This document shows positions 12,477 through 44,174 of a DNA stretch of 56,249 nt, piece after piece. A program made the translations under genes and the position numbers. Position 1 is the stretch's first letter, and the number at the start of each line of letters is the position of its first letter. A model generated the notes under the pieces. The model made no database searches, was not told where the DNA came from, and saw nothing but the letters and a program-made list of their open reading frames with translations. The stretch lies in IMG/VR virus record IMGVR_UViG_3300031857_000228, positions 1 to 56,249 of that record, one strand, 5' to 3'. Origin of the DNA: a virus.

Positions 12477-12914
12477 ATGAACACCGACCTCATGTTCTCG
12501 TCGGCCACCGACCAGTGGGCCACGCCGCAGGCGTTCTTCGCTGAGTGGGACGCGGTCTTCAACTTCGAGCTGGATGTCTGCGCCGACGCCTCGAACGCGA
12601 AGTGCTGGCGGTTCTTCAGCGAGGCCGACAACGGCCTCTACCAGGACTGGGCGCCGAACCGCTGCTGGATGAACCCACCCTACGGACGCGAGATCCGTCG
12701 ATGGGTCCAGAAGGCGTACAACGAGAGCCTCCGCGGCGCGACGGTCGTGTGCCTCCTGCCGGCCCGGACCGACACGGCGTGGTGGCATGACTACATCCTG
12801 CCGCACGCGATGGTGACCTTCGTCCGGGGGCGCATCAAGTTCGGCGACTCGAAGAACGGTGCGCCGTTCCCGAGCGCGGTCGCCGTGTTCTATCCGCGGG
12901 CCTCGCAGCGATGA
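12477..12914 (+). CDS. dam: Phage DNA N6-adenine methyltransferase (Dam type)
   Basis: The 145-residue protein matches the compact phage Dam family (PF05869 type): it opens with a TDQWATPQ phrase, has LDVCAD near residue 37, and the catalytic NPPYG at 66-70. It would methylate adenine N6 in phage DNA, for protection against host restriction or timing of replication. There is no ribosome-binding site, and the promoter -10 box ends six bases before the ATG, so the message is probably leaderless. It overlaps the polymerase start by four bases, so both are likely co-transcribed. Confidence 0.85.
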   Translation: MNTDLMFSSATDQWATPQAFFAEWDAVFNFELDVCADASNAKCWRFFSEADNGLYQDWAPNRCWMNPPYGREIRRWVQKAYNESLRGATVVCLLPARTDTAWWHDYILPHAMVTFVRGRIKFGDSKNGAPFPSAVAVFYPRASQR

Positions 12915-15745
12915 CCTACGATCCCCGGAAGTGTGGCGCACGCTGCGACGAGTGTCCGCTCGGCCCCTCGGGCAAGTTCCGCGAGGGCTACTGGCAGCCC
13001 GTGCCGCCGGAGCGCCACACCGGCGCGACCATCCTCGCGGTGGCGGAGATGCCGCACGCCGAAGACGCCAACAACGGCCGTCCGTTGTCGGGCCGCTCCG
13101 GGCAGGAATGGAACGCCGCGCTGCTGGCGCTCGGCAAGCGCCGCACGGACATCGACCTCACGCACGTCGTCGCCTGCTCCGCCGGCACGCAGCCGAACGC
13201 ATGGGAGAAGCTCAACAAGGCGCTCGACAAGGAGAACCGGCGTCTTCTTGCGCAGGGGCTCCCCGTCCTCCCCGACCCTATCATGTGCTGTCGGCCACGT
13301 CTACTGGCCGAGACGAACAACTACGAGAACATCCTTTCTCTCGGCAGAGTCGCCGCCAACTCGCTGACGGGAAAGGCGCAGTCCATCTTCTCGCTGCGGG
13401 GCGGCCCGGTGTGGGTCGACGAGAACTACGGCGCGCTTCTGGAGACGCCGCTCGCCGGCGACGCCGTGCCGGACGGCGCGGTCCGCAAGGTGTTCCCGAT
13501 GTTCCACCCCGGCTTCGTGCAGAAGGCTCCGGGGTGGCGGCACGTCCTGCACGCCGACCTCGGGAAGGCCCTCCGCTGGTTCTCTGGGGCGCTTCGGTGG
13601 ACCGAGCCGACCCGAACCTTCAACCCGTCGCCGGACGAGCTGGAAGCGTTCCTGGCGCGCCCTGCGCCCTTCTGGGCCTACGACTTGGAGACGGACGGCA
13701 TCGAGTCGCTCGTGTGCAAGGTGCGCTCCATCGCCATCGCGCACCCCGACCTCAACGCCGAGGGGCGCGCCATGCGCCCCGGCCAGGAGGAGGCCGTCCG
13801 CTGCGCGGTGATGGGCCTCAACATCCTGAGCGGCGACGGCTTCACCCGGTACTACGATCCCGCCGACGAGGCCCGCGTCCTCGACATCCTCCGGCGCTTC
13901 TTCCTCGACACGAGCAGGGTCAAGGTGGGCCACAACGCCGGCTACTACGACCGACAGGTCGTCGAGCAGTGGCTCGGCGTGACCCCGATGCCGATCATCG
14001 ACACGCTCTTCGCGGCAAGGTTCAGGGCGCCCGAGCTGCCAAAGGGGCTGAAGACGGTGGGCTCGGTCCTCACCGACGTCGACCGCTGGGAGACGACCGA
14101 GAAGGGCGAGAGCCTCGCGTTCGGGAATGTCGACGACTGGGACCGCCTCGCCTACAACTGCACCGACTCGTCGGTGAACGCGCGCATCGTCGTGCCGTTG
14201 ATGGACGCCGCAGAAGAGGTCGGCGCGTTCCGCGACCTGCCCGAGGCGCTGCGGCCCGTCGGCTGGGAGAACCGGCGCTGGGACCTGCACGAACTCGACC
14301 ACGCGACGCAGGATATGTGCGTCAACCTCCACAAGATCGGCGTGTACGTCGACCAGGAAGCACGCTTCAAGATGGAGGTGGAGACGCGGGCCTCGGTCGC
14401 GAAGCGCGAGAAGAACCTCTCCGAGCTGGCGCGTGCCGTCGGCGTCAGTCGGCTCGACCTCAAGAGCGCCGGCGCCAACGACGAGAGCGACGACACCGAG
14501 GGCGTGAAGCCGGGCAGCGCCGACCAGATCCGCGACCTGCTCTACGAGGAGTGGAAGCTCGGCATCCCGCCGAACATGGAGGCGCGCGACTTCTACACCA
14601 TGTCGGGGATGCCGGGCACCGGGGACAAGGTGCTCCGCGGCCACCTCGCCGGCGGCCGGCTGACGAAGGAGCAGGAGGCGTTCATCCGCGAGCTGCGGCT
14701 GTACCGCCGGGAGAAGAACAAGATCCTCGGCACCGTGCTGCTACCGCTGAACCTCGCGGCGCACGACCCGAAGAAGGGCGTCATCTGGCACGCCGACGGG
14801 CGCGTGCGCTCCACCTGGAACGCCCACGTCACGGCACCGGGGCGGCTGTCTTCCTCTGGTCCGAACCTTCAGAACATCGGCTCACGGAAGGGACAGGGCA
14901 AGCTGAAGACGCTCTTCGCAGCGCAGCCGGGCCACCTCTTCGTCGGCGCCGACCTCGACCAAGCGCATCTCCGCATCACGGCGAACTACTGGCGCATCCC
15001 GCTCCTGCTGGAGTGCTTCAGCGAGGGGAAGGATCCGCACAACACGCTCGCGTATCAGGTGTTCGGCGACAAGTTCAAGAACGCGGACGGCTGGGGCCCC
15101 GACGGCTTTAGCGTCTACAAGAAGCCGGGCGGCGGCATGGCGAAGGCGATGCGCGATGTCATGAAGACTTTTAGATATGCCAGTATTTACTGGGCAGATC
15201 CGATGACCGTGTGGCAAGTGCTCACGTCAACCGAGTCGGACGGCGGCGAGATGCCGTACCTCAACATGACCTCGAAAGAGGTCCGCCACTTCCACGAGAC
15301 ATGGCTCAAGAACGAGCCGGAGTGGATGGCCGCATGGGAGGTGATGCTCTCGATGTATCGGCACCAGGGCTACATGGAAGAGCCCGTGCTGGGACGGCGC
15401 TCGGGTGGCCTCTCCGACGGCAAGAAGAACGAGGTCGTGAACTTCCCCATCCTGGCCGCCGAGGCGTCGCTGATGCGGCTTGCGGAGCAGGCGCTCATCG
15501 CTGCCTACCCGTGGAACCTCGACGCGCGGACGGGCCTCATCCACCAGTGCCACGACTCCGTCGCGGTAGAGATCGAAGCTCCGCCGGGGCTGGAGAAGTG
15601 GAAGCCCGCGAAGGGGGAGGCGCTCCCCGCCGAGCTGGAGCGCCATCGGAAGCGCGTCGAGGAGTGCATGACGGTGCGCGTTCCTGGCTGGGAAGTGCCG
15701 CTCACCGCCGAGGCGAGCGTCGGCCGAAACCTCAAGGAGGCTTGA
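12911..15745 (+). CDS. Family A DNA polymerase with N-terminal UDG-like domain
   Basis: The 944-residue protein has three parts. Residues 8-215 resemble family 4 uracil-DNA glycosylase: cysteines C12, C15, C89 and C126/C127 placed like Fe-S ligands, a GRPLSGRSG phrase, and FHPGF at 198-202. Then comes a 3'-5' exonuclease with DLETDG at 258-263, N342..D347 and YNCTD at 415-419. The polymerase has RLSSSGPNLQNIG, motif A D681-LDQAHLR, motif B R748, K752, Y756, Y760 and motif C H881-D882. Unusual: motif C reads HDS rather than HDE, motif A has His at the usual Glu, and W761 follows the motif B tyrosine. The two catalytic aspartates remain. Confidence 0.9.
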   Translation: MTYDPRKCGARCDECPLGPSGKFREGYWQPVPPERHTGATILAVAEMPHAEDANNGRPLSGRSGQEWNAALLALGKRRTDIDLTHVVACSAGTQPNAWEKLNKALDKENRRLLAQGLPVLPDPIMCCRPRLLAETNNYENILSLGRVAANSLTGKAQSIFSLRGGPVWVDENYGALLETPLAGDAVPDGAVRKVFPMFHPGFVQKAPGWRHVLHADLGKALRWFSGALRWTEPTRTFNPSPDELEAFLARPAPFWAYDLETDGIESLVCKVRSIAIAHPDLNAEGRAMRPGQEEAVRCAVMGLNILSGDGFTRYYDPADEARVLDILRRFFLDTSRVKVGHNAGYYDRQVVEQWLGVTPMPIIDTLFAARFRAPELPKGLKTVGSVLTDVDRWETTEKGESLAFGNVDDWDRLAYNCTDSSVNARIVVPLMDAAEEVGAFRDLPEALRPVGWENRRWDLHELDHATQDMCVNLHKIGVYVDQEARFKMEVETRASVAKREKNLSELARAVGVSRLDLKSAGANDESDDTEGVKPGSADQIRDLLYEEWKLGIPPNMEARDFYTMSGMPGTGDKVLRGHLAGGRLTKEQEAFIRELRLYRREKNKILGTVLLPLNLAAHDPKKGVIWHADGRVRSTWNAHVTAPGRLSSSGPNLQNIGSRKGQGKLKTLFAAQPGHLFVGADLDQAHLRITANYWRIPLLLECFSEGKDPHNTLAYQVFGDKFKNADGWGPDGFSVYKKPGGGMAKAMRDVMKTFRYASIYWADPMTVWQVLTSTESDGGEMPYLNMTSKEVRHFHETWLKNEPEWMAAWEVMLSMYRHQGYMEEPVLGRRSGGLSDGKKNEVVNFPILAAEASLMRLAEQALIAAYPWNLDARTGLIHQCHDSVAVEIEAPPGLEKWKPAKGEALPAELERHRKRVEECMTVRVPGWEVPLTAEASVGRNLKEA

Positions 15746-19598: not shown

Positions 19599-20336
19599 AT
19601 GACAACCGCAGGGAAGTCTTGGTCCTTCGAGAAGATCGCGTCGGTTCAGGCGGCCCTGCGGTCGCGCCCCCTCTCCGCTGTCGCGGCGGAGATGGGGTGC
19701 TCGCCGGCGAACCTGCGCCGGCGGCTGGCCGTCGCGGACGACTCCTCCGGCAAGCAGGTCTACGAGCTTCGGCTCGCCGGGATGGAGTTCCGCGACATCG
19801 CCGTCGAGCTGGGCCTCCCGGTCGAACCCGCGACGGCGCGCCGGCTCTATATGCGCCTCGTGCGCTACTGCGAGCGGGCGGGCGTCGAGTACCCCCAGCC
19901 GCCAAAGCCGGCGACCAGCCCGCGCTCCTGGTTCAAGGAGTCGGACCTTCGCCGCATCGTCGCGCTGCTCGAAGAACGCGCAGCCCGGCTTGAGGCCACC
20001 GATAACTGGTGCATCTCGTTTACGCTATCCCTTTCTCTGAGAGAAGTGAAGACGGGAATCGCGGAGCTTCGACGCCGAGGAATCATCGCTTCTGGCATCG
20101 TGCCGACGACGGCCGGCGTCGAAGAAGCCACGCTCCGCCAGAACTCCGCGACCGCGATGGACCGCGTGCTGTGTGCGATCGTCGAGGCGCGGAAGCGCAA
20201 CGAGGATGAATCGCTCGCCACTCTGTGCGATAAGCTTCCCTTCAGCAGATCTACCATCAACCTGTCCATCGTCCGGCTTCGCGACGACGGCTACCTCTTG
20301 CGGCGCGGCCATCTCGCGCTTCGGAACGCACGATGA
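19599..20336 (+). CDS. Helix-turn-helix DNA-binding protein (245 aa)
   Basis: The 245-residue protein has a possible HTH at about 26-45 (LSAVAAEMGCSPANLRRRL), a second at about 63-85 (FRDIAVELGLPVEPATARRL), and winged-helix-like stretches near 137-160 and 205-235 (FSRSTINLSIVRLRDDGYLLRRG). Repeated HTH units suggest a replication initiator, an origin-binding protein or a regulator. It overlaps the DUF927 helicase start by four bases, which favours a replication role such as helicase loading. This is inferred from context. Confidence 0.65.
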   Translation: MTTAGKSWSFEKIASVQAALRSRPLSAVAAEMGCSPANLRRRLAVADDSSGKQVYELRLAGMEFRDIAVELGLPVEPATARRLYMRLVRYCERAGVEYPQPPKPATSPRSWFKESDLRRIVALLEERAARLEATDNWCISFTLSLSLREVKTGIAELRRRGIIASGIVPTTAGVEEATLRQNSATAMDRVLCAIVEARKRNEDESLATLCDKLPFSRSTINLSIVRLRDDGYLLRRGHLALRNAR

Positions 20337-22480
20337 ACGACGAAGAACTCACCGAGCCCTCGGCCGCCGAAGAGAAGCCCGACACCGTGTCGAGCGGTCT
20401 CGACCTGCTGCGGGTCCTCCAGAACCAGCTCGCCTCGACGGAGAAGTCGAACCACCTCGCCGCATGGGGCGCCATCCAGCGGGCCGAGGCCCTCTCGGAC
20501 ATCGCGGATGCCTGGGTGGCTGACGAAGCCCAGGTGTCGAGTATGCTGGCCGTCATCGAGATGACCCCCGGACAGGTCACGCGGACGCGCGCGCTTCGCG
20601 CTGCGTTGAAGCGGCTCGTCGTCGAAAAGCGGCGCGCCTCGCTCGACCGTGTTATCGGTGTCGTGCAAGACAACACGCTCATCTCTCTCAGCACTGCGCT
20701 GGGGGCAGGTGCGCCGCCGCCTGCCTTGGTGGAGCCGGGACACCTCGACTCGTTCCGGGTGCCGCGCGGGTACATGATTGACCCGACCGGCGTCTTCAAG
20801 ATGTCCGTGCAGGCCGACGGCACGAGCAGCAGTCAGCGTGTGGCGACGGCGCCCATCTTCATCGTGGGCCGGACGCACGACGTTCTGCTCGGCACGGCGA
20901 AGCGCATCATCGTGTGGCGCACGCCGGCGGGCTGGACGATGCGCGCGGTGGACCGCGGGGTCGTGCTCAACAGCCAGAAGCTCATCGGGCTGGCGGACAT
21001 TGAGGTGCCGGTCACCTCGAACACCGCGGGCGCGCTCGTCGAGTGGCTCGCCGAGTTCGAGGCGGAGAATATGCACCGGTTCAACGCCTCTCAGGCGGCC
21101 AGCCGGATGGGCTGGATCCAGCAGGGCGCGGTGCGCGGGTTCCTCTTGCCCGAGGTCTTCTACACCATGTCGTCCGGGCTGGAGGACGTCGGCGTCGAGC
21201 TGACCCCGCCGCTCGGGATGGAGAGCGTCCTGGAGGGCTGGAAGCCCGCCGGATCGTGGGAGGAGTGGATTGAGGCGATGGAGCTGATGAAGCCCTTCAC
21301 CCCGATGTGGCTTGCGCTCTACGCTTCGGCTGCGGCTCCGTTCCTGGAGATCTTCGGGGCTCCGTCCTTCGTCGTGGACTTCAACGGCGAGACGTCGAGC
21401 GGCAAGACGACGGCGCTCCGGGTCGGCGCCTCGGTGTGGGGCCGCCCGTCGGACAACACGCCGACGGCGATGTACTCGTGGGACTCCACGAAGGTCTTCA
21501 TCGAGCGGCTGTGCGGGCTCCTCTGCAACCTGCCCGTCATCCTCGACGAGACGAAGCGCGCCAAGGATCCCAAGATCGTGCGGGATGTCGTCTACGACTT
21601 CGCCAACGGACAGGGCCGCGGACGCGGAGCCCCCGACGGAACGCGCCAGACGGCGTCCTGGCGCACGATCATGCTCACCTCGGGTGAGTCCGCGGCCACC
21701 TCGTTCTCGCAGGATGGCGGCACCCGTGCGCGCGTCCTGTCGCTGATGGGCAAACCGATGGGCACCGACATGGCAGTCGGCGGTCCGGCCGCCGAGGAGC
21801 TGACGTCCCTCATCGCGCACAACTACGGGCACCTCGGCCGGAAGGTCGTGGCGTACATCATCAGCGTCGCGGACCAGCACGACGAGCTGCGGCGCGTGTG
21901 GAAGGAGACGAAGGACCAGTACGCGGCGTTCGCGCGGACCGCGGTGTCTCGCCGGCACGCCGGCAACCTCGCCACGCTCCACGTCGTCTCGACGATCATC
22001 CATCACCTCGGCGTGCCGATGCCCTCCGACGACCCGATGGCGTTCGCGCTCGAAGCGCTGCATCGGCTGGAGGTCGAGCGCGACCGGCCGCACGCTGCGT
22101 TCATCGAGACGGTGTCGTGGTGCAGCGCGAACCAGAACCGCTTCTGGGGCCGGCACGAGTCGCGTGGCGACTCGCTCGCCATCCCGGCGCGTGGCTGGGC
22201 CGGCGCGTGGGAGAACAGCGACGACTGGAAGCACATCTCCATCCTGCCGTCGGTGCTTCGCGAGGTCGTCGAGGCGCAGGGGTTCCAGGTCGACGAGATC
22301 GTGGACCGGTGGACGGAGCGTGGCTGGATCATCTCGACGGAGCGTGTCGGCGCCGCGGAGGGCAAGGTCTCCCGCAGCCGGACGACCGTGTCGCGCATCA
22401 ACGGGGCGCCGATGCGGGTCTACCAGATCTCCCGTGCTGCTGTGGAGAACCATGTCCTCGACGCTACCATCGAGATCTAA
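20333..22480 (+). CDS. DUF927-type replicative helicase
   Basis: The 715-residue protein has the DUF927 core in its centre: Walker A GETSSGKT at 352-359 and a Walker-B region LPVILDETKRA with D405-E406, followed by a sensor-like TSGES near 449. DUF927 proteins are AAA-type helicase-like enzymes encoded by phages and mobile elements, often with or fused to primases. No primase motif is evident in the first 200 residues. The C-terminal 150 residues contain a winged-helix-like stretch. With the HTH protein just upstream, it is the best candidate for the phage replicative helicase. Confidence 0.85.
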   Translation: MNDEELTEPSAAEEKPDTVSSGLDLLRVLQNQLASTEKSNHLAAWGAIQRAEALSDIADAWVADEAQVSSMLAVIEMTPGQVTRTRALRAALKRLVVEKRRASLDRVIGVVQDNTLISLSTALGAGAPPPALVEPGHLDSFRVPRGYMIDPTGVFKMSVQADGTSSSQRVATAPIFIVGRTHDVLLGTAKRIIVWRTPAGWTMRAVDRGVVLNSQKLIGLADIEVPVTSNTAGALVEWLAEFEAENMHRFNASQAASRMGWIQQGAVRGFLLPEVFYTMSSGLEDVGVELTPPLGMESVLEGWKPAGSWEEWIEAMELMKPFTPMWLALYASAAAPFLEIFGAPSFVVDFNGETSSGKTTALRVGASVWGRPSDNTPTAMYSWDSTKVFIERLCGLLCNLPVILDETKRAKDPKIVRDVVYDFANGQGRGRGAPDGTRQTASWRTIMLTSGESAATSFSQDGGTRARVLSLMGKPMGTDMAVGGPAAEELTSLIAHNYGHLGRKVVAYIISVADQHDELRRVWKETKDQYAAFARTAVSRRHAGNLATLHVVSTIIHHLGVPMPSDDPMAFALEALHRLEVERDRPHAAFIETVSWCSANQNRFWGRHESRGDSLAIPARGWAGAWENSDDWKHISILPSVLREVVEAQGFQVDEIVDRWTERGWIISTERVGAAEGKVSRSRTTVSRINGAPMRVYQISRAAVENHVLDATIEI

Positions 22481-22973: not shown

Positions 22974-22990
22974 GGGTGAGGGAGATTCAC

Positions 22991-23566
22991 ATGACTGAAT
23001 CCGACTCCACTCGCGTCGTCGTGTCGAAGCTGCCGGGCCTGGACACCGGCCTCGCGCCATCCTTCTCCCCGCCGGCCCCGATGGCGCGCTCCACGCGCGT
23101 CGAGGCCGCCGCGGAGGCGGAGGTCGTCGAGATGCTGGCGGAGCAGACGCGCTTCGCCGGCGACCCGGAGTCGCGCGCCGTGGCGGTCCAGCTTCTGAAC
23201 GCCGGCTACACCGTCCGCGAGGTCTCCCGCCGGCTGCGCCTCCGGCCGCACATCGTGTGGGCCTGGGCGGAGGAGCCGGCCATCAAGGGGGCCATCGAGC
23301 GCGGGCGCGAGCTGCGCCGCCGGAGCCTCGGGCAGGAGCTGGAGGACGCCGCGAACGAGGCCATCGGCACGCTCGTCGTGCTGATGCAGGACGAGGCGAC
23401 GACCCCGAAGGACCGGCTCAAGGCGGCCGAGCTGATCCTCGATCGATGCGGCCTCGTCGAGGTCGCGACGAAGTCGTCGGCAACCCAGGAGACCGCCATC
23501 AAGGTCGACATCGACTTCGACGAGCGGCTCGCGCGTATCGTCGCTGCGAACCGCTCGTCCGGGTGA
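22991..23566 (+). CDS. Terminase small-subunit candidate
   Basis: ATG 22991 with GAGGGA upstream is preferred; an in-frame GTG at 22976 adds five residues. The 191-residue protein has a central HTH (VREVSRRLRLRPHIVWAWAE, about 78-97), then a helical region with LMQDEATTPKDRLKAAELILDRCGLVE, the pattern of many phage terminase small subunits (short HTH, then ...R..Aa..iLdr.G). This would recognise the packaging site. It is about 18 kb from the large subunit and on the other strand, which is unusual, so an HTH regulator cannot be excluded. Confidence 0.6.
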   Translation: MTESDSTRVVVSKLPGLDTGLAPSFSPPAPMARSTRVEAAAEAEVVEMLAEQTRFAGDPESRAVAVQLLNAGYTVREVSRRLRLRPHIVWAWAEEPAIKGAIERGRELRRRSLGQELEDAANEAIGTLVVLMQDEATTPKDRLKAAELILDRCGLVEVATKSSATQETAIKVDIDFDERLARIVAANRSSG

Positions 23567-27080: not shown

Positions 27081-28526
27081 CTACGCTTCGGCGGCGCGCT
27101 TCACGAGCACCGGGAGGAGCGCCCCGGCGGCGCGCTCGACGCGCCAGCGCTGCGCCTCGTCGAGGAGGCCCTCGTGGGCGGCCCGCGTGACGGCGTTGAA
27201 GGCGTCCGCGAGGGTGTCGCCGGGCTCGGCGTCGAAGCCGCGGAGGAGCGCCTCGACGAGGGTGTCGCGCGCCACGTCGGCGTCCAGCTCGCCGCCCTTC
27301 ACGAGCGCCTTGAGCGCCTCGCGCGGGTCGACGTGCTTCTTCCCGCCGATGGCGACGGCGGACACCGGGGTGTCTCGGAGCACGCCCCACGAGTCGAGGA
27401 AGAACCGGGCGGCGTCGCCCGACTGCTCGACGAGGCCGCGCACGTCGCTCGCGATGCGGGCGAGGCCCACGCCGGTGAGATCGGTCGTGCGGCTCCCCTT
27501 GTGGACCCGGCGGAACGCCGTGTCGCCGAAGTCGACGGTCGTGCAGTTGATGCAGATGATCCGGGTGAAGCTGTTCCCGCCGATGTGGGCTCCGCCGCCC
27601 GCGTCGTTGGAGCGCCCGACGATCCCGGACTCGAACACGTCGCCGACGCTCGGGCGGAACGACTGCGGCGCGTGCCACGTCGCGCGGATCGTGACGTCCG
27701 TCGTCTCGCCGTTGTAGGCCACGGCGCCGCGGGGGTCCGGCAGGCCGAGCCCGTCGAGCGCCTCGACGTAGGTGCCGAGGACGCGGTCGCCGTCCATCGG
27801 CATATAGCTCGGGCTCACCGCGGCGAAGGCCTGCCAGTTGCCGCCGATGGTGCGCAGGCGGAGGCGCACCTCGCGGCTGTCGTCCTCGGGGTAGAACTCC
27901 GCGAGACGCTTGAGCTGGGCGTTCATCACCTCGGCCCGGTCGGCGGGGTCGAGGAGCGCGAGGAAGCTCCACGCGGAGGGGAACGCCTTCGGGAAGCGCT
28001 GCACGAGGCCCTTGAGGGCGAGGGGCTCCAGCGCGATGGGCGCCTTGCCCCGCGTCAGCGTGCCGTCGGGCAGCAGCCGCAGCTGCCGCGCGTCGCCGAG
28101 CTGGACGTCGCGCCGGCGCTCGGCGCGGATCTGATCGATGACCGCGCCGGCGGCGTCCCGGAACGCCGGGAGGTCGGCGTGGCGGCGGGCGAGGCTGCCG
28201 AACTTCGCGCGCCCCTCGGGCAGCATCTCGGTGCCGGCGGCGAACCAGGGGGGCGGCGCGGCGAAGCCGCGGGTGCCGAGGAAGGCCTCGGCGGCGCCGA
28301 TGCGGGCGGCGGCCGCCGCGTCGACGTCCACGCCGGGGCGGAGCGCCGGGGCGACGGGGGCCGCGACGACGGGCGCCGGGGCCGAGGCGGCCGGGGTGAC
28401 GGGCACGAGGCGCCCCGCGAAGCCGGCCGCCGCGTAGGCGGCCATCATCTCGAAGGCGAGGCCCTCGGTGACGCTGCCGTCGGGGCGGGTCCAGCGGGCG
28501 AAGGCGGGGGCGGTATTGTCGGTCAT
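27081..28526 (-). CDS. DUF932-family phage/plasmid protein
   Basis: The 481-residue protein contains the DUF932 pattern: a SPSYMPMDGD phrase near residue 238 (family form S.rY.p.D), then a block with GDVFESGIVGRSNDAGGGA and RIICINCTT, where the family has an RliC-N segment. DUF932 proteins occur on phages and plasmids and have no settled activity. The first 75 residues are an Ala/Pro-rich extension. It has its own promoter (28572) and a strong AGGAGTCAGCC leader. It is the largest gene of this accessory cluster. Confidence 0.75.
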   Translation of the reverse strand: MTDNTAPAFARWTRPDGSVTEGLAFEMMAAYAAAGFAGRLVPVTPAASAPAPVVAAPVAPALRPGVDVDAAAAARIGAAEAFLGTRGFAAPPPWFAAGTEMLPEGRAKFGSLARRHADLPAFRDAAGAVIDQIRAERRRDVQLGDARQLRLLPDGTLTRGKAPIALEPLALKGLVQRFPKAFPSAWSFLALLDPADRAEVMNAQLKRLAEFYPEDDSREVRLRLRTIGGNWQAFAAVSPSYMPMDGDRVLGTYVEALDGLGLPDPRGAVAYNGETTDVTIRATWHAPQSFRPSVGDVFESGIVGRSNDAGGGAHIGGNSFTRIICINCTTVDFGDTAFRRVHKGSRTTDLTGVGLARIASDVRGLVEQSGDAARFFLDSWGVLRDTPVSAVAIGGKKHVDPREALKALVKGGELDADVARDTLVEALLRGFDAEPGDTLADAFNAVTRAAHEGLLDEAQRWRVERAAGALLPVLVKRAAEA

Positions 28527-30041: not shown

Positions 30042-30635
30042 CCGGTACGGTATATGTTTCGACCGTGCCGCCTCGTGGAAGTAGGCGTAGAACCTGCGGC
30101 ATCTCGAGATTGGAGAAAGTTTCCGCCGCGGTAGAGTCGGCGAAAGTCGGCGTTACAACGATGGTAACGGAATCGGGCAGGTTGGAGGCCGGGAATCGGC
30201 GGCGTTACGCGTTACGCACGCCGCGGAGAGGGGGCCTATAGGAGCTATACGGAGAGATACACGATCAGGAATACGAGTAGAGGCTACACGTAGAGCCCCT
30301 ATACGGAGAGAGTGAGATCTCGATCTGTTGTGGGGTGTTGCAAGTCGCCGTGATTGTTGGGGGAACGAGTTACGGAGAAGAGCGATCATGGCTCATTCCG
30401 TGTAACACGGCGTTCAACCTGGGTTATTCGCAAGTCGGGGTTGACTCGTCAAGAGACGAAATCTACGGACGGTAGATCCGCATGGCGACGGTCGCGGCGA
30501 CGATAGAATGGTAAAGCGCCGGTCGAACGCCGATATACATGGATGATATACGGCCTGCTATCGAAAGTAGATATGCAACCGGTCGCGACGGCACGGGTCA
30601 ACGCAAACCGCGAGGTGCGTTTGACGCCTCCGGCT

Positions 30636-30671
30636 CGACTTGTTACGAGACGAACGTCTCGTAACAAGTCG
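30636..30671. repeat. Perfect 36-bp palindrome
   Basis: Seventeen-base arms (30636-30652 and 30655-30671) are exact reverse complements around AA. No gene ends nearby, so it is not a simple terminator. Confidence 0.85.
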
Positions 30672-30810
30672 GCCCTCCGGCCGTGAGATTGTCGGCGTTG
30701 AACCGTGACGGGTCCGCCGGGCAGCTCCGCCGGCCCGCCGGTCCGCCGGGAGGGGGACGCGCCGCCGGTCCGGCCCGCCGGCAAGGGTGAATCGCAATAG
30801 AGCCGGCGTT

Positions 30811-30838
30811 GAAACTGCGTAGTCTTCTACGCAGTTTC
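30811..30838. repeat. Perfect 12-bp stem hairpin
   Basis: GAAACTGCGTAG (30811-30822) and CTACGCAGTTTC (30827-30838) pair around TCTT, in non-coding DNA. Confidence 0.8.
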
Positions 30839-30911
30839 GACGGCGGCCCGCCCCGCGAGGGCCCCGGCCACCGGCGCCGCGCCGGATAGTCGCCGGCAGG
30901 ATCGCCGGAAA

Positions 30912-31006
30912 GGCTACTGGGAAGCCCGCCAGCGCGAAAGCGGGGGGCCGGCAGGGGTGGAGTAGCCCCCCGGCCCCGGAGCGGCTCTAATCGCGTCCCA
31001 GTGGCC
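30912..31006. ncRNA. Structured element, copy A
   Basis: Cruciform-like: outer stem 30912-30922 with 30996-31006 (11 bp, one wobble), then AGCC (30923-30926) with GGCT (30983-30986), enclosing a small CGC/GCG hairpin and an 8-bp stem GGGGCCGG (30944-30951) with CCGGCCCC (30970-30977). A related copy follows at 31150. RNA status and strand are not shown. Confidence 0.4.
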
Positions 31007-31149
31007 TTCCCGCGCGTCGCCCCGCCGGGCGCCGGACCGCCGGCCGGACGGGGCGCCGGCCGCCGGCCGCCGGGGTGCCGGAGCTTCGGGGCGCCGGGTG
31101 CCAGGGAGTCAGGGCTCCGGGGCGCCGGGGCGCCGGACCGTCGGGAACC

Positions 31150-31241
31150 GCAATAGGAAGCCCGCCACGGGCAAAGCGGGGGCGCGGCAGGGGGTAGGCA
31201 TAGGGGCGCGCCCCGAACGGCTCTAATCGCTTCCCAGTGCC
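31150..31241. ncRNA. Structured element, copy B
   Basis: Shares GGAAGCCCGCCA, AAAGCGGGGG, GGCTCTAATCGC and TCCCAGTG with copy A in order. The inner stem is GGGGCGCG (31179-31186) with CGCGCCCC (31207-31214), differing from A at two positions with matching changes. The outer stem is weaker than in A. Confidence 0.4.
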
Positions 31242-31254
31242 CCTAAACGCGAAC

Positions 31255-31282
31255 GGCCCCCGATCCGGTTGGATCGGGGGCC
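31255..31282 (-). terminator. Strong hairpin after the 31307 gene
   Basis: GGCCCCCGATCC (31255-31266) and its exact complement (31271-31282) pair around GGTT, 25 bases past the minus-strand stop. No T-run follows. Confidence 0.6.
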
Positions 31283-31306
31283 GCGGGGAGCGGGGAGCGG
31301 GGAGCG

Positions 31307-32206
31307 CTACGCTTCGGGGATCATCTCAGAGACCGCATCGGCGGCCGCGGCCAGGAACGCGGCCGGGCCGCTCGCGATCCGGCGCCGCTTCGCGCCGATC
31401 GCACCGTGAAGCTTGACGTAGCGACCCGGCCGGGCCGCGTTGCGCGCCGCACCGTTGCACGCGACACACGCGACGCAGGGGATCGGGGCTTCGGGACGAT
31501 CCGCTTCACAGTGCGACGCGCCTACTTCGGCGAACGCGCGATCGTCCGCCGGGCTTTCGCTTGCGGCGAATACGCGCCATCCCTTCGAGCGGGCCCGCAG
31601 GTAGTCCGCGGGCGACGATACCGAAGCCATGAAATAGCACGACCATTCGACGGGAAGCGTGCGCCACGCCGCGGTGTAGCCCGTGTGTCCGCGCGCTTCG
31701 GCGAGGAGCGCGGCCCAAACTTCGAGCGGCGCGGCCGCGGGATCGCCCTCCATACCCGCCCGGATCCGGGCCCCCGCAAACGTACCAGGAACCCAGCCGA
31801 TCCGGCCGGCTTCCATCTCGCGACGGGCCGCACGCCATGCGGCGGACAACCGCGCCTTGTTCACGTAGCAGTCGCCCTTGCCGCCGCGCGGGATCGAACG
31901 GTGCCCGCAGTCGTCCGGGCACACGGCGCCGTCGGCGCCGGCCTTCCAGGCTTCGATCGGCGGACGATCCTGCCGCATGATCGACACCTGGACCATATCC
32001 CCGGTCTTACCGTTCTCGCTCGGCGCGTTGATCCGATGCGCCACAAGCATAATCGGCGTCGCGTCAAGCGTAGACGCGCCGGACCAAAGCACGATCGTGT
32101 CGTGAAGCTTCGGGGCGCGTGTTGCTTTGCGGACGGCGCGCCATGCGACGCGCCACGGGGCGATCGTGCGGGAACGGGCTTCGGGCTTGCGGACGAGTGC
32201 GGGCAC
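31307..32206 (-). CDS. Conserved phage Cys-rich protein (DUF7227-like), isolated
   Basis: GTG 32206 is chosen because GGAGTCAGCC precedes it, as in the DUF932 gene. The 299-residue protein has KTGDMVQVSIMRQDRPP, then PDDCGHRSIPRGGKGDCYVNK, a pattern I know from a widespread phage protein family (..KTG.m.q..il.....P.ea...G.d..iCg.C.hr.....CYv) with no known activity. A second cysteine group, CVACVAC near residue 255, could complete a metal site. It stands alone between two non-coding, repeat-rich regions. Enzyme, replication or transposition roles are all unproven. Confidence 0.7.
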   Translation of the reverse strand: MPALVRKPEARSRTIAPWRVAWRAVRKATRAPKLHDTIVLWSGASTLDATPIMLVAHRINAPSENGKTGDMVQVSIMRQDRPPIEAWKAGADGAVCPDDCGHRSIPRGGKGDCYVNKARLSAAWRAARREMEAGRIGWVPGTFAGARIRAGMEGDPAAAPLEVWAALLAEARGHTGYTAAWRTLPVEWSCYFMASVSSPADYLRARSKGWRVFAASESPADDRAFAEVGASHCEADRPEAPIPCVACVACNGAARNAARPGRYVKLHGAIGAKRRRIASGPAAFLAAAADAVSEMIPEA

Positions 32207-32249
32207 GGCTGACTCCGAGGACCGGGGGAAGTGAACCGGTCCCGATCCA

Positions 32250-32276
32250 CCTATACCGGGGCGGTTCAGCGCGCAA
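32250..32276 (-). promoter_or_regulatory. Weak promoter candidate for the 32206 gene
   Basis: On the minus strand: TTGCGC (32276-32271) and TATAGG (32255-32250) with a short 15-bp spacer (16 if TTTGCG), about 45 bases before the GTG. Confidence 0.4.
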
Positions 32277-32423
32277 ACAGAACCCTTCGATCTGCCGATC
32301 CGCCGATCCGCCGATCCGCCCGGAAAGCAATAGTCAATCATTCCGGGTAGTTAGCGCGATGTGCTCAATATTTGATATTGACGTGTCAATAGCGGTAGAA
32401 CGCACTGGGAGCGCATTAGAGCG

Positions 32424-32469: not shown

Positions 32470-32523
32470 TCGACTGGAGCGCTAAACTAACACTTTCGCA
32501 CTCGCGACGCTTCGAGCCGGTCC

Positions 32524-32611
32524 GGTCCGCCGGTCCGCCGGTCCGCCGGTCCGCCGGTCCGCCGGTCCGCCGGTCCGCCGGTCCGCCGGTCCGCCGGTCC
32601 GCCGGTCCGCC
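32524..32611. repeat. Eleven tandem copies of GGTCCGCC
   Basis: Eleven exact 8-bp units in a row, with related GGTCCGCC phrases also near 30720-30780. There are no spacers, so it is not a CRISPR. Confidence 0.9.
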
Positions 32612-32919
32612 GGTCCGGCCGGAGCTTCGGCGCCGGCGCTCGTGTCCGGCCGGAGCTGCAGGCCGGCGCTCCGGCGCTCGTGTCCGCCCGAACCGCCGGC
32701 GCGCCGGACCGCCCCGCCCCCGGCACCGGACCCCCCGGCGCCGCCGACCCGCCGCCGGCACCGCCGCGCCGCACCAACGACGAAGCGAGCGACGACGCCG
32801 AAACTATTGATGACAATCCATAAGGCACCAACCCGCCGTAGAGTCAATGGGGACCCCAAAGCGAAGAGCGTTCCCCGGACGCGAGCATATTTCTGAATCG
32901 CTATACCGCTGCGGTACGC

Positions 32920-32948
32920 TTGTCATCCCACCACAGCGGTGCTACGCT
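32920..32948 (+). promoter_or_regulatory. Promoter of the HhH gene, leaderless
   Basis: TTGTCA (32920-32925), 17-bp spacer, TACGCT (32943-32948), six bases before ATG 32955. ACCGCTG (32905-32911) and CAGCGGT (32934-32940) are an inverted repeat around the -35. Confidence 0.6.
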
Positions 32949-32954
32949 GCGCCG

Positions 32955-33836
32955 ATGATTCGAGACCTCCCCCTCCCGCTCCGCCTCCGCAACGCCCTGG
33001 CGAAGGCCGGCTTCAACGACGAGCAGCAGCTCAAGGACTGGCTCAGCGGCACGCCGATGCCCGGCCTCGACGACGGCGTCATCCCAGGCGTCGGACCCAC
33101 CGGCATGAAGGCCCTCCGAGACTGGGCGGACGCGGCTAACGCCGCGCCCACCCTGTCTCGCAGCGCTCCGCGTGTCGAGCTGGATGCGTCGTCGCGATGG
33201 AATCCGCCCGCTCTGCCGGCGTTCGACAAGGAAATCCAGCGCCGCAGCGAGGAGTTCCGCGCGCGGGGCGGCTCTGTCGTCGTCGGCGACGGGCGCGGGC
33301 TACTGGCGCTTCGGCTCGAAGTCGACATTCAAGACAGACTCCGGGCGATGATCCCTGTTATCAAGGGGCTGGCGCATGTCAAGGAGCTGGGCGTCGAAGT
33401 TTCGGCAGAAACGGTGGGCCGAATGGCGCTGATCCGGGGCCTCGACGCCCTGGAACGCGCCCACCGCGGCCAGAATCGGCCCGAAACCGCCGAGAAAGAG
33501 GCGAAATCGGCCGATCCGAGCCCCGAAGACGCCGTTCCGACGCCCGATCCCGACGCGGAAGTCCACGAAACGCCGCCGGGCTGGTCGAAATGCGGCCCGA
33601 CGGACAAGATTCCGGTCCCCGAAGCGGTCCTGCACGACTACTACACCCAGAACGGGTGGTCCCGGTACTGGGGAATGGTCGATGGGACGCCGATCTACTT
33701 CTACTGGAGCCCCGAGAAGCGGCTCCAAGACCTCGATCCGTTCCCCGGAAGCGACAAGAGCGGCCGAAAGGTCGCCATTCAAGGCACTCCCTGGGGTCCG
33801 GGCCACGTCGTGCCCGTCAAGTGGGCCAATGCGTAG
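32955..33836 (+). CDS. Helix-hairpin-helix protein (293 aa)
   Basis: The 293-residue protein begins with a helical domain containing IPGVGPTGMKAL (about 43-54), a helix-hairpin-helix motif that binds DNA backbones, as in the RNA polymerase alpha C-terminal domain and repair proteins. The middle has KELGVEVSAETVGRMALIRG, then an acidic Pro-rich linker and an aromatic C-terminal domain (about 230-290). ATG 32955 has no ribosome-binding site but follows the promoter by six bases, so it is probably leaderless. A regulatory role is plausible but not shown. Confidence 0.65.
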   Translation: MIRDLPLPLRLRNALAKAGFNDEQQLKDWLSGTPMPGLDDGVIPGVGPTGMKALRDWADAANAAPTLSRSAPRVELDASSRWNPPALPAFDKEIQRRSEEFRARGGSVVVGDGRGLLALRLEVDIQDRLRAMIPVIKGLAHVKELGVEVSAETVGRMALIRGLDALERAHRGQNRPETAEKEAKSADPSPEDAVPTPDPDAEVHETPPGWSKCGPTDKIPVPEAVLHDYYTQNGWSRYWGMVDGTPIYFYWSPEKRLQDLDPFPGSDKSGRKVAIQGTPWGPGHVVPVKWANA

Positions 33837-38028: not shown

Positions 38029-39759
38029 CTACGCGACGGGGATGGGAGTGGGGCCCATAGCTTCCATGACATCGGAGGGGGCGTTCTGCGTCGCCGCCTC
38101 CACCGTCTCGGTGGCGGGCACCTCTGTGGGGACCGCGCCGGGCGGCAGCGGAGGACCGCCGGGGGCCGCGCCGGGAGCGCCGCCCATCGCGCCCATCATC
38201 TGCGCCATCATCATCTGCTGCGCGGCCTGCTCCTGGGCCTCCATCTCCTCGCGGGGGATGAGCAGCTTCGTGGAGAGGCCGACGCCGGTGACCAGCTCTT
38301 CCAGCAGGGCGCGCTTGTTGACGTTCGGATCCTGCGCGAGGATCGGGAACATCTTGAGCAGCGTCTCGGAGAGCACCGAGGGGTTCTGGCGGATGGGGTT
38401 GTAGGACACCATCGAGAAGTTCACGTCGACATCGCGAATGTCGCCGAGGCTCACCTCGCTCCAGCCCTCGTGGCCGCTGACCTGGACGAGCTTCGGCTCC
38501 TTCATGTACTTCTTCGACAGGTAGAAGCACTTCTCGGCGACATCCTCCAGCGCGCCGTTGATGTGCCCCTCGCGCGTCGCGAGACGAGTCCGCATCTGGG
38601 CGTCGATGATCGCCATCTCCGTCGCGGTGCGCGCACCGGCGACCTGACCGCGGGCCGCCTCGGCAAGCGCCGAGATGAACGCCGCGTCGCCCTCCTGACG
38701 CGCGATGAAGTTCTCGACGCCGACCGGCACCTGGGGCATCGGCATCTCGTAGAACAGCGTGGAGAGGGTGCGAAGCCCCTCGGCGTTCGTCGGGCTGATG
38801 GGGACGAACGAGCCCGTCGCCGCCTCGACGGCCTTGTTGAGGTCTTCCTCGGTGATCAGCTCGCTGTTGAACAGGATGCGCGGGATCATCAGGTAGACGA
38901 TCTGCTTCATGTGCGTGAGCAGGTCGTTGATGGTCTCCTGCTGGTTGAGGACGAGCTGGACCTCGGAGAGGCCGAGACAGTCCACCGCGCTCTGGTTCAG
39001 CGAGAACATGGAGTATGGGACGTAGTCCAGCTCCTGCTCGAACACGACGGCGTCGGCCTGCCGCACATAGTGCGTGACCTTGTTCGCCTCGCGGTCGTAG
39101 TACTCCCACACCGTGACCCACTCGAACGCATCGCGGAGCTGCCCGCTGTCGGTGTTCTTGTAGGTGTCGCTGATCCACTTCGGGTAGCGGTCCGGCGTGA
39201 TGTCGTCCATCTTCGCCGACCGGTACGCGCCGCTCTGCACCCGCCGCTTGAACTCGGTGTAGGGGATGACCGCCGCCTCCAGCCAGTAGCGAATGTCGTC
39301 CGGGTCACGGACGGTCTGGTCGAAGAACACCGCGCCGGGCTCCAGCACGCGCACCAGCGGCCGGTCCTCGACGGCGTTCCAGCCCGTCTTGAAGATGCCG
39401 CGCTTGCAGAGGACGGCGTCGATGAGCGCCGTCGCAGCGCGGCGCCGCATCTTGTTCGCGTCGAAGACGTATTCCATCAGCCCGTTCACCAGGGGGATGA
39501 CCTCCTGGCTCTCGCGGTTGCGGGGATTCGCCGCGACCTTCGGGTTCGGGCCGAGCAGCGCGCTCACCGCCGTGTCGGCGATGGCGTAGATCATGTTCTT
39601 CGAGCAGAGGAACGACGGAATGGCCCCGTCGCTCAGGTTCGTGTCGTTGCGCGAGATGTAGAAATCGCCGCGGTAGTACCGACGCGCCTTGTCGAAGTTC
39701 TTCTTCTCGACCCGCTCGTAGTAGCGCCTGTGATTGTCGATGAGCTTGGAAAGGTTCAT
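38029..39759 (-). CDS. Portal protein
   Basis: The 576-residue protein fits phage portals: an N-terminal helix region, the phrase VLEPGAVFFDQTVRDPDDIRYW in the wing, long helical segments in the stem region, and a Pro/Met-rich C-terminal tail. It follows the terminase large subunit directly, with an ATGA overlap at 39759, the most common order in tailed phages. ATG 39759 behind GGGAG is preferred over GTG 39765. Function: dodecameric DNA channel at the head vertex. Confidence 0.85.
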   Translation of the reverse strand: MNLSKLIDNHRRYYERVEKKNFDKARRYYRGDFYISRNDTNLSDGAIPSFLCSKNMIYAIADTAVSALLGPNPKVAANPRNRESQEVIPLVNGLMEYVFDANKMRRRAATALIDAVLCKRGIFKTGWNAVEDRPLVRVLEPGAVFFDQTVRDPDDIRYWLEAAVIPYTEFKRRVQSGAYRSAKMDDITPDRYPKWISDTYKNTDSGQLRDAFEWVTVWEYYDREANKVTHYVRQADAVVFEQELDYVPYSMFSLNQSAVDCLGLSEVQLVLNQQETINDLLTHMKQIVYLMIPRILFNSELITEEDLNKAVEAATGSFVPISPTNAEGLRTLSTLFYEMPMPQVPVGVENFIARQEGDAAFISALAEAARGQVAGARTATEMAIIDAQMRTRLATREGHINGALEDVAEKCFYLSKKYMKEPKLVQVSGHEGWSEVSLGDIRDVDVNFSMVSYNPIRQNPSVLSETLLKMFPILAQDPNVNKRALLEELVTGVGLSTKLLIPREEMEAQEQAAQQMMMAQMMGAMGGAPGAAPGGPPLPPGAVPTEVPATETVEAATQNAPSDVMEAMGPTPIPVA

Positions 39760-41405
39760 GTCCACTCCCGAGCGATGGGCTTGAAGGGGTTCCTCGCCGC
39801 GGCTCGCTCATGATGCTTGAATCGATCAAGGTCGGCAATCGTAACGCGCGACCCGTCCGAAGTCCCGAAATCCTGCACGGGCGTCGGGGCTTCGTCCGCC
39901 GTGAATCGGCGCCGCGACAGAATGTCGGCCGCCATGACGGCCGTGCGCGCGAGGTCGAAGTGGTGCGTCGTGCCGTCGTTGTTCGACGAGCGCTTCGTCC
40001 GGTTGCCGTCGTAGTTCATCAGCTGGTGGAGCAGCGGCTTCGACTTGATGGTCAGCTCGTTGTCGCGGAGCATCCGCACGAGGCGCGCCTCGCCTTCCTG
40101 CACGCGCTTCTCGGTCGCGTACCAGCCGGGATGGTTGCGGTCCGTCCAGAGGAGGTTCTTCGCGCCCTTGTCCTTCAGCATGGCGATGCACGCCGCCGCG
40201 TTGCTCTCGACTGCCAGCAGCGCGTGGTTGTAGAACCGCTGGAGGTTGAGCAGCCGCTCCGCGAAACGACCTGGGTCTTCTCGACCTTCCCACATCGCGA
40301 CCTCGCGGCGCTCGATGGCGTCCCACACCGTCACGGCGCTGTTGTCGCCGACGCTGCCGAAGCCCGCCGGGTCGGCGCAGACGAGGTACGCGCGGCCGCG
40401 CACGGGCCGCTCCAGCAGCGAGGCCCCCTTCGGCATCGGCTCGGGCGGCACGACGGAGGTGAGGAGGCTCTCCTTCAACACGTCGATGGGCATGACGGGC
40501 GCACCACCGCCGAGCCAGCCGTCGTAGGGGTCGCTGGGGTACTTCGAGGTGAACAGACGCTCGTCGTTCGCCATCTCCGTCTGGAGCGAGATGCGCCGAA
40601 ACGCGAGGTTGTACAGGTCCATCCCTGGATGGCGCTTCATGTACTCCAGCTCGGTGTCGGTCGGCCGGAACCCGGTGGGGTCAACCCGGCAGCTCGGGTC
40701 GAGCCACCATTCCAAGAAGACCGGGTGGAAACGACCCTTGCCCTCCAGCGCGTTGTGCCACATGGTCTCGTGGTGGCTGCCCGACGAGCCGGGCGTGGAC
40801 TCCAGGATGACGCGCGCGTTCTGGCGCTTGTTGACCGCGGGGAAGATGTTCGCGGCCGCCTTCCGCTGCCACTGCGCCTCGCCGAACTCCGTGATGAGCA
40901 GTCGGTCGATGGAGCGACCGACCGCGGGAGAGCGCCCGCCCGCCGTCAATACCTTGATACCGCCGCCGTGGGCGAAGTGAATCTGCGTCGTTCCGGGCTT
41001 GCGGCCCGACTCGACGGGGACCTTGACGTCGTCGGGCAGTCGCCCGTAGGCGAACAGGATGCGCTCGAAGATGTCCTCCGCCGTGTCCTGCCGCTCGGCG
41101 ATGAGGACGCCCTTCACGCCTTCCAGGTACATGCAGTCGCGGAGCAGCAGCATGACCGAGGGGGTCGTAATCTTCGCCTGCCGGAACTTGTCGCAGATGA
41201 CCCAGCGATGGTCCGAACACGCCTGCAAGAACTTCATCTGGATGTTCGTCGGCTCCAGATAGCCGATGCTCTCGTCTTCTCGGACGATCTGGCACATCGA
41301 AACGAACGCCCACGGCGTCGAGAAGAGCGCCTGCACCTTTCCCATGTGAAGGCCCGGAATCTGCGCGATCTTCGCGCCGCCGGGTAGACTCGCCGGTGCG
41401 TTCAC
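39756..41405 (-). CDS. Terminase large subunit
   Basis: The 549-residue protein has the packaging ATPase at the N-terminus: an atypical Walker A with R75-Q-A-K78-I-T-T81 in CDKFRQAKITTP, and Walker B RLLITEF ending in Glu173. The nuclease domain has VCADPAGFG near 347 with an acidic metal ligand, AVESN near 400 and HFDLARTAV near 485. It cuts and translocates DNA into the head with the portal. The GTG start at 41405 has AGGAGC upstream. The gene is on the opposite strand from the capsid and far from the small-terminase candidate. Confidence 0.9.
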   Translation of the reverse strand: MNAPASLPGGAKIAQIPGLHMGKVQALFSTPWAFVSMCQIVREDESIGYLEPTNIQMKFLQACSDHRWVICDKFRQAKITTPSVMLLLRDCMYLEGVKGVLIAERQDTAEDIFERILFAYGRLPDDVKVPVESGRKPGTTQIHFAHGGGIKVLTAGGRSPAVGRSIDRLLITEFGEAQWQRKAAANIFPAVNKRQNARVILESTPGSSGSHHETMWHNALEGKGRFHPVFLEWWLDPSCRVDPTGFRPTDTELEYMKRHPGMDLYNLAFRRISLQTEMANDERLFTSKYPSDPYDGWLGGGAPVMPIDVLKESLLTSVVPPEPMPKGASLLERPVRGRAYLVCADPAGFGSVGDNSAVTVWDAIERREVAMWEGREDPGRFAERLLNLQRFYNHALLAVESNAAACIAMLKDKGAKNLLWTDRNHPGWYATEKRVQEGEARLVRMLRDNELTIKSKPLLHQLMNYDGNRTKRSSNNDGTTHHFDLARTAVMAADILSRRRFTADEAPTPVQDFGTSDGSRVTIADLDRFKHHERAAARNPFKPIAREWT

Positions 41406-42976: not shown

Positions 42977-43124
42977 ACGGATGCACCCCTCATCGGTGTT
43001 TCGGGTAGCCCCTCGGGGTCCGTAGCTACGAAGAGCGGGCAGGCGCAGCACGAACTTCAACTGTTCCTTCGACCACGCCGGTCGGAGTCGCGACGCGCGT
43101 CTGCCCCCGGCTATGGAGTTTCCG

Positions 43125-44174
43125 ATGGCGATCTCTACCGAAATCCTCAACACTACCTTCGCGGACCTCCGCGGCCCCCTCGTCAACTCCTTCGTCCGCT
43201 CCAACGAGCTGCTCCAGCAGCTCATGGACAAGGCGCGCATGCCCTCCGAGGGCGGCAGCCTCATCGAGCGGTCCTTCGCCGGCGGCGCTCCCGCCCGCGG
43301 CGTGGGCGTGTTCGTCGGCGACGAGCTGCTCAACATGACCCGCCGTCAGCAGACCAAGCGGTTCCAGGTCGAGCCCCACCGCATCGTGGCCGCGATCAAC
43401 ATCCCCAAGAAGGAGCTGCTCTTCAACAGCGGCAAGCTCGCCGTGATCCGGCTCATCGAGGAGTACCCGCAGACCACCCTTGAGGGTGCGAAGGCCGACC
43501 TCAACGCCTTCCTCCTCACCGGCGTGTCCCGTGGCCTCGTGTTCCAGACCGCCGACCTCGCCGGCTTCCTCAGCCTCAACGGCGAGTTCACCGCCGGCTC
43601 CGGCACGGGCGTGACCAACGGCCTCCTCAAGTTCGCGGCCCCCCCGTCCCAGAACCAGAACGTGCAGAGCGTGGTGAAGTCTACCTCGTACTCGCACTTC
43701 AACCAGTACGGCGCGATCACCGCCTGGGCCACCGACGGCCTCCCCACCCTCCGCAAGACCTACCGCCAGTGCGCCCACTACGCGGGCGGCATGGGCAAGG
43801 GCCCGGACCTCGTGGTCATGGACGACGACACCTACACCAACTTCGAGGACTCCCGCCTCTCCCTCGTCCGCGTGACGCTGGTCGAGGACAAGACCGAGAA
43901 GAGCAACATGCTCGGCCTCGATCTCGGCGTGGCGAAGGTGTACAGCTCCATCGACCTCGACCGCTCGGCCTTCCCGTCCCCGGCGTCCAACGGCGCGACC
44001 TACATCCTCAACACCGACTTCATCGAGATGCCGCTCATGGAGGCCCCGTCCATCACCCCGTTCACCGAGCGCGTCGGTGACCAGGACGTCGTGACCGCGA
44101 TCTTCTCGATGCAGGGCAACCTCATCTGCACGAAGACCCCGGCCCAGGGCTGCGTTTCCGGCGGCGCCCTCTAA
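43125..44174 (+). CDS. Major capsid protein
   Basis: The 349-residue protein starts at ATG 43125 behind GGAG; an upstream ATG (43113) lacks a ribosome-binding site. Its layout fits an HK97-fold capsid protein: an N-terminal arm with SNELLQQLMDKAR, an E-loop-like Gly-rich segment, P-domain stretches near 95-190, and A-domain strands near 255-330 with MPLMEAPSITPF. It is preceded by its own late promoter and followed by a decoration-type protein, as usual. Codon use is the most biased in the window (mostly C/G-ending codons), as expected for an abundant product. Confidence 0.85.
   Translation: MAISTEILNTTFADLRGPLVNSFVRSNELLQQLMDKARMPSEGGSLIERSFAGGAPARGVGVFVGDELLNMTRRQQTKRFQVEPHRIVAAINIPKKELLFNSGKLAVIRLIEEYPQTTLEGAKADLNAFLLTGVSRGLVFQTADLAGFLSLNGEFTAGSGTGVTNGLLKFAAPPSQNQNVQSVVKSTSYSHFNQYGAITAWATDGLPTLRKTYRQCAHYAGGMGKGPDLVVMDDDTYTNFEDSRLSLVRVTLVEDKTEKSNMLGLDLGVAKVYSSIDLDRSAFPSPASNGATYILNTDFIEMPLMEAPSITPFTERVGDQDVVTAIFSMQGNLICTKTPAQGCVSGGAL

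Follow-up and report, generated by a model that had tools for sequence, protein, structure and literature searches.

The two repeated hairpin sequences, A and B, in this 56,249-base IMG/VR virus record (the window, from an uncultured phage; G+C 67–70%) belong to a small family of ~95–125-bp intergenic inverted-repeat elements, which is apparently undescribed and has no match in Rfam. The element is real and is probably useful to the phages that carry it. We tentatively read it as a cis-acting hairpin in 3'-flanking RNA transcribed from the minus strand, serving processing, protection or termination; this ranks as the most likely explanation, with a paired DNA-binding site as a close second and a MITE-like repeat third.

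Copies A and B are housed in ~1.3 kb of DNA without convincing genes, flanked by minus-strand genes. The genes assigned in the window are as follows.

5754–7676: helicase-like protein
12911–15745: DNA polymerase
20333–22480: primase
22976–23566: terminase small subunit
27081–28526: 481-aa gene
31307–32341, minus strand: gene of the PHROG 2554 family, preceding copy B on that strand
32847–33836: HhH-type gene
38029–39765, minus strand: portal
39756–41405, minus strand: terminase large subunit
43113–44174: major head protein

In protein searches against a cultured-phage collection, the head protein, terminase and polymerase gave distant matches only. The PHROG 2554 family gene, which has no function assigned in PHROG, occurs in most related phages.

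The preliminary description had placed a cruciform-like element at 30912–31006 (A) and 31150–31241 (B), and the blocks shared by the two copies are indeed located there, together with AGCC/GGCT in both copies and the 11-bp outer stem of A, which contains one G·U pair. The copies can be aligned without gaps over ~111 bp (30896–31006 with 31132–31242), with identities of 74% over 62 nt and 88% over 32 nt. Their parts are listed below, orientation F being the strand of the conserved first arm.

30896–31016, minus strand (orientation F): copy A with flanks; fold z −3.5 on the plus and −4.0 on the minus strand
30912–30922, plus strand: outer arm of A, GGCTACTGGGA; the CACTGGGAAGC-type arm runs on to 30925
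30944–30951, plus strand: left side of the inner stem of A, GGGGCCGG
30970–30977, plus strand: right side of the inner stem of A, CCGGCCCC
30983–31006, minus strand: conserved arm of A, reading GGCCACTGGGACGCGATTAGAGCC on that strand; model score 39 bits, as a training member
31132–31253, minus strand: copy B with flanks; corresponds in position and flanking sequence to L107:19190–19300
31149–31161, plus strand: second arm of B, CGCAATAGGAAGC; 13 nt identical to L190:7614–7626
31219–31241, minus strand: conserved arm of B, reading GGCACTGGGAAGCGATTAGAGCC on that strand
31254–31283, minus strand: GC-rich hairpin of 13 bp, placed past the 3' end of the minus-strand gene and ahead of copy B

At its core, the element has a pair of inverted arms, both based on CACTGGGAAGC, that enclose a middle of largely divergent sequence. 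The more conserved arm, CACTGGGAAGCGATATGAGC, lies on the minus strand in the window; in orientation F its consensus is GGnnnCACTGGGAAGCGATWWGAGC, often preceded by GATCGCG or GTTCGCG, and it is followed by a middle of mostly 66–68 nt and then by the inverted, less conserved arm. Of the seven copies measured, five have their arms 72–74 nt apart (A and B, 73; G003, 72; L190 and G012, 74), the exceptions being G007 copy C at 85, with a 12-nt insertion, and G007b at 64. By eye, the middle contains a short TAT/GTA motif, whose distance from the conserved arm is mostly 26–28 nt. No fold of the middle is shared across the phages: A, B and G007 C have short G+C stems (GGCCGG/CCGGCC or GGCGCG/CGCGCC) there, and G003 and L190 have other hairpins.

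The strongest evidence that the element is more than chance comes from homologues in other phages, a search for which had been proposed in the preliminary description. Related phage contigs were collected by protein searches (G001–G007 and G010–G013, with G008, G009 and G010 as more distant ones). Nine copies were found in seven phages, the window phage included, by methods among which exact-pattern scans miss diverged copies and on contigs several of which are fragments: two in the window phage, two in a 66-kb relative, one in each of four other relatives and one in the phage of contig L190. The copies outside the window are the following.

L133:7625 and L133:11199: copies of G007, the latter also at L107:19190–19300
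L135:8115–8202: copy of G003
L112:4282–4386: copy of G011
L136:9145–9233: copy of G012
L106:9739: copy of G006
L190:7604–7718: copy of L190

In the related phages, every copy falls within the interval from the 481-aa gene homologue to the HhH-type gene homologue. None was found in G013, in the near-identical pair G002/G005, whose two contigs jointly span this interval, or in the distant G010; the element is therefore dispensable, since some relatives lack it. The copy in L190 was the only further true copy from a degenerate scan of viral contigs. This phage is AT-rich, has its own terminase and portal genes and shows essentially no protein similarity to the window, the best match (E 6e-4) being to an endolysin-like stretch. 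Its element forms a GC-richer patch within AT-rich intergenic DNA. One arm is of the CACTGGGAAGCGATATGAGC type, and the other has CGCAATAGGAAGC in common with copy B; by our own arithmetic, the chance of this 13-nt match at the right place is ~3e-6. When six copies were used to train a sequence-only model of the conserved half, the model recovered the untrained copies of G011 (E 0.0017) and G006 (E 0.02). Copy B and its G007 counterpart are 84% identical over 87 nt, including the loop AGGGGGTAGGCATAGGG, and most of the surrounding noncoding DNA cannot be aligned. It is thus very improbable that we are looking at chance stems in a genome of 67–70% G+C plus one local duplication: many GC-rich inverted repeats do occur around A and B, and copy B folds no better than shuffles, but two-armed homologues exist in other phages, one of them of low G+C, and for the arms L190, G003 and G012 refute chance.

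Folding was compared with that of shuffled sequences. Copy A folds better than chance, with a z of −3.0 alone and the lower values listed above with its flanks, and copy B, at a z of about 0, does not share this property. Across the family, six of the nine copies fold better than shuffles on strand F (G012, −9.5; A, −4.0; L190, −3.0; G006, −2.8; G003, −2.3; G011, −2.2), and B, G007 C and G007b do not. In seven of the nine, the z on strand F is the lower of the two.

The claim of a covarying stem stands in part. The inner stem, GGGGCCGG/CCGGCCCC in A and GGGGCGCG/CGCGCCCC in B, is present with two compensatory pair changes in B; these two pairs are double-changed relative to both A and G007 copy C and are the best covariation evidence in the family. 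In the two-row alignment of A and B, 3 of 26 pairs are changed on both sides yet still pair and 90% of cells pair, as compared with 35–50% pairing and no double changes for structures slid by 1–3 columns; 71 of 500 shuffles equal the covariation result, two sequences having little power. Overall covariation is weak, and the arms are interchangeable: pairing of arms within and between copies is about equal (permutation p 0.06–0.18). Much of the "stem" is one conserved sequence in two orientations, and because both arms derive from one motif and exchanged arms pair equally, they are no proof of base-pair covariation.

Cross-copy pairing of the arms is also what one would expect of a DNA site bound by a protein, and it counts against an RNA hairpin. 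Such a site, which we regard as possible but somewhat less likely, would comprise two inverted ~28–35-bp sites (core GATCGCGnnTAGnCGCACTGGGAAGC) separated by ~73 bp; a phage protein bound to them would loop or mark the inter-operon region for transcription control, replication start or packaging start. The near-constant spacing fits this idea, as do the outward extension of one arm to the GATCGCG motif in G003, G006, G007 and G011, the promoter-like boxes seen by eye near the copies of G003, G007 and G011, and the confinement of related-phage copies to the interval from the 481-aa to the HhH gene. The absence of a copy from the close relatives G013 and G002/G005, however, disfavors an essential origin or packaging site, one of the roles suggested earlier; two copies in some genomes, the compensated changes of the inner stem and a polarity toward gene 3' ends likewise speak against a DNA site.

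This polarity holds for each of the five copies that have a plausible gene upstream: the conserved arm on strand F follows that gene's 3' end. The distance from gene end to arm is 72 nt for copy B, 151 nt for G007 copy C, 62 nt for G012 and 6 nt for L190, and in G006 the arm overlaps the stop codon of the upstream gene; gene calls near some copies were made by eye. The converse orientation, with the other strand following a gene end, was seen for no convincing gene, and no convincing gene precedes the copies of G003, G007b and G011, which are located upstream of the HhH gene. In L190, the gene in question is a minus-strand ORF of 62–67 aa (L190:7713–7911), below the 70-aa limit of the ORF list. 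Gene-end polarity and strand-F folding are both modest asymmetries; together they point to a minus-strand transcript. The preliminary description was right about a real, repeated, hairpin-forming element with phage homologues; the element is probably read on the strand opposite to the one used there.

The RNA-hairpin reading would make A and B members of a ~110-bp cis-acting hairpin family carried by phages, each copy being an imperfect palindrome of a conserved arm, a divergent middle (a GC stem with a loop in the window's clade) and an inverted, less conserved second arm. The minus strand would be the working strand, and its transcript would carry the element, in most cases a short way downstream of a gene, and there it would fold into an irregular hairpin, which may mark or protect the 3' end or serve as a processing or termination site, through RNase III or a phage protein. 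This reading draws on the number of copies and phages, the arm spacing, the identity kept by B and its G007 counterpart, the position after gene ends, the folding on strand F, the compensated inner stem and the GC-richer patch in L190; the copies that fold no better than shuffles, the divergent folds of the middle and the missing T-tract count against it. The element does not fit an intrinsic terminator, as by eye no T-tract directly follows A, B or the homologues. At B, G007 C and G012 the stretch from gene to element contains a GC hairpin of its own; the one in the window (31254–31283), having a weak minus-strand T-run, is a better terminator candidate than the element and possibly terminates the minus-strand gene upstream of copy B.

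Irregular hairpins between phage genes are familiar from T7-type phages, as RNase III processing hairpins and 3'-end hairpins. The element shares their irregular intergenic form, its processing being putative, and differs in having a ~20-nt arm whose sequence is kept across very different phages. HK022 put RNA is a cis-acting, structured RNA that suppresses pausing and termination on early phage transcripts (PMC9378689); the element, a putative cis-acting structured phage RNA as well, mostly lies after gene 3' ends.

A less likely explanation than either the hairpin or the DNA site is a non-autonomous mobile repeat of the MITE/ERIC/RUP type, with the arms as terminal inverted repeats, moved between phages and positions and later fixed in some copies. 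MITE-like bacterial repeats (ERIC, RUP, Correia/NEMIS) are likewise short and intergenic with inverted termini, and are predicted to form stable hairpins once transcribed (PMC2229807, PMC10969869). Small size, termini of the CACTGGGAAGC type and a divergent core would agree with mobility, as would presence or absence between close relatives, differing positions and the copy in L190. One copy even runs into a gene: its arm forms the last codons (RIAASATGKP) of the terminase small subunit gene of G006 (L106:9212–9754), which adjoins the noncoding region and is not near the primase, showing that a repeat can supply the end of a terminase subunit gene. Against mobility, there are no near-identical copies, the element occurring in lytic-type phages at one or two divergent copies per genome (A and B about 74–88% identical), unlike ERIC, RUP and Correia repeats. 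Also unlike these, no parent transposase with these ends was found in an unsystematic look, and by eye the flanks of G011 and L190 show no clear target-site duplication. The noncoding flanks of the element are too diverged for an empty site to be recognized. Among bacterial genomes, 0 of 37 matches to the conserved arm have a second arm; copies in related genomes are confined to one region, and the sequence of copy B and its counterpart is better preserved than most of what flanks them.

The PLE IIR transcript of Vibrio phage satellites is noncoding, has terminal inverted repeats and is likened by its authors to MITEs (PMC7567579); its transcription has been shown, whereas the element here is known from sequence alone. 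MITE-like repeats, PLE IIR RNA and HK022 put RNA have none of them been shown to be identical to the element. Short noncoding elements common to otherwise unrelated phages are seldom described; if functional, this one would suggest a shared factor of host or phage origin and the passing of control elements from phage to phage. A further reading, speculative and rather doubtful, sees in it a novel type of short phage control element, RNA or DNA, that unrelated lytic phages exchange and that is recognized by a host factor shared among hosts differing widely in G+C content.

Searches for known RNAs and further relatives gave the following results. Rfam 15 yielded no match in the window at gathering score and, at E up to 10, chance-level matches only for A/B and L190; tRNA and tmRNA searches found nothing, and Blast of the region or its homologues against phages and plasmids found no convincing relative. 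A twister- or HDV-like ribozyme was rejected, with Rfam support absent and the inner fold not fixed, and a coding peptide (RTGKxxEP...) was ruled out by the substitution pattern, changes between B and G007 C in the best frame being, by eye, mostly nonsynonymous, and A and B lying out of phase at a distance of 236 nt. An IMG/VR pattern search returned L064, a second record of the window virus; other matches to pattern CTCTAATCGCNTCCC looked like chance. In the apparent homologue set L019/L024/L046/L059, the matching sequence appears to be coding (L019 ORF 7631–8536), and L138 is a chance match to unrelated sequence. An apparent compensatory change in L060 was judged to be chance and sits in a local repeat; L060:1050–1300 holds local repeats with GAGAGGCCTCTAATCGC, which resemble the 3' block of the element, probably by chance.

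Several further observations concern the surrounding genome. G005, G007, G011, G012 and G013 share a circular gene order with differing contig starts, consistent with circularly permuted (headful) genomes, and the large terminase is a distant relative of T4-type enzymes. Cumulative GC skew has a broad peak near the element in the window phage, G007 and G011 and peaks away from it in G012, G013 and G005, a pattern that may simply track gene strand. An array of 8-bp repeats (TCCGCCGG) occupies 32511–32621, and similar CCGG-rich repeats occur at 30711–30781 and 31022–31136. The noncoding region also holds strong inverted repeats at 30636–30671 and 30802–30847 (in the order listed, 17-bp perfect with a 2-nt gap, and 21 nt at 90% with a 4-nt gap), with a comparable palindrome in G007 near L107:19397–19432. 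Motifs resembling CGTTACGCGTTACGC recur in the noncoding region of several related phages (window 30200–30225; L102:21225–21245; L107:18640–18700) and are possible candidates for regulator or origin sites.
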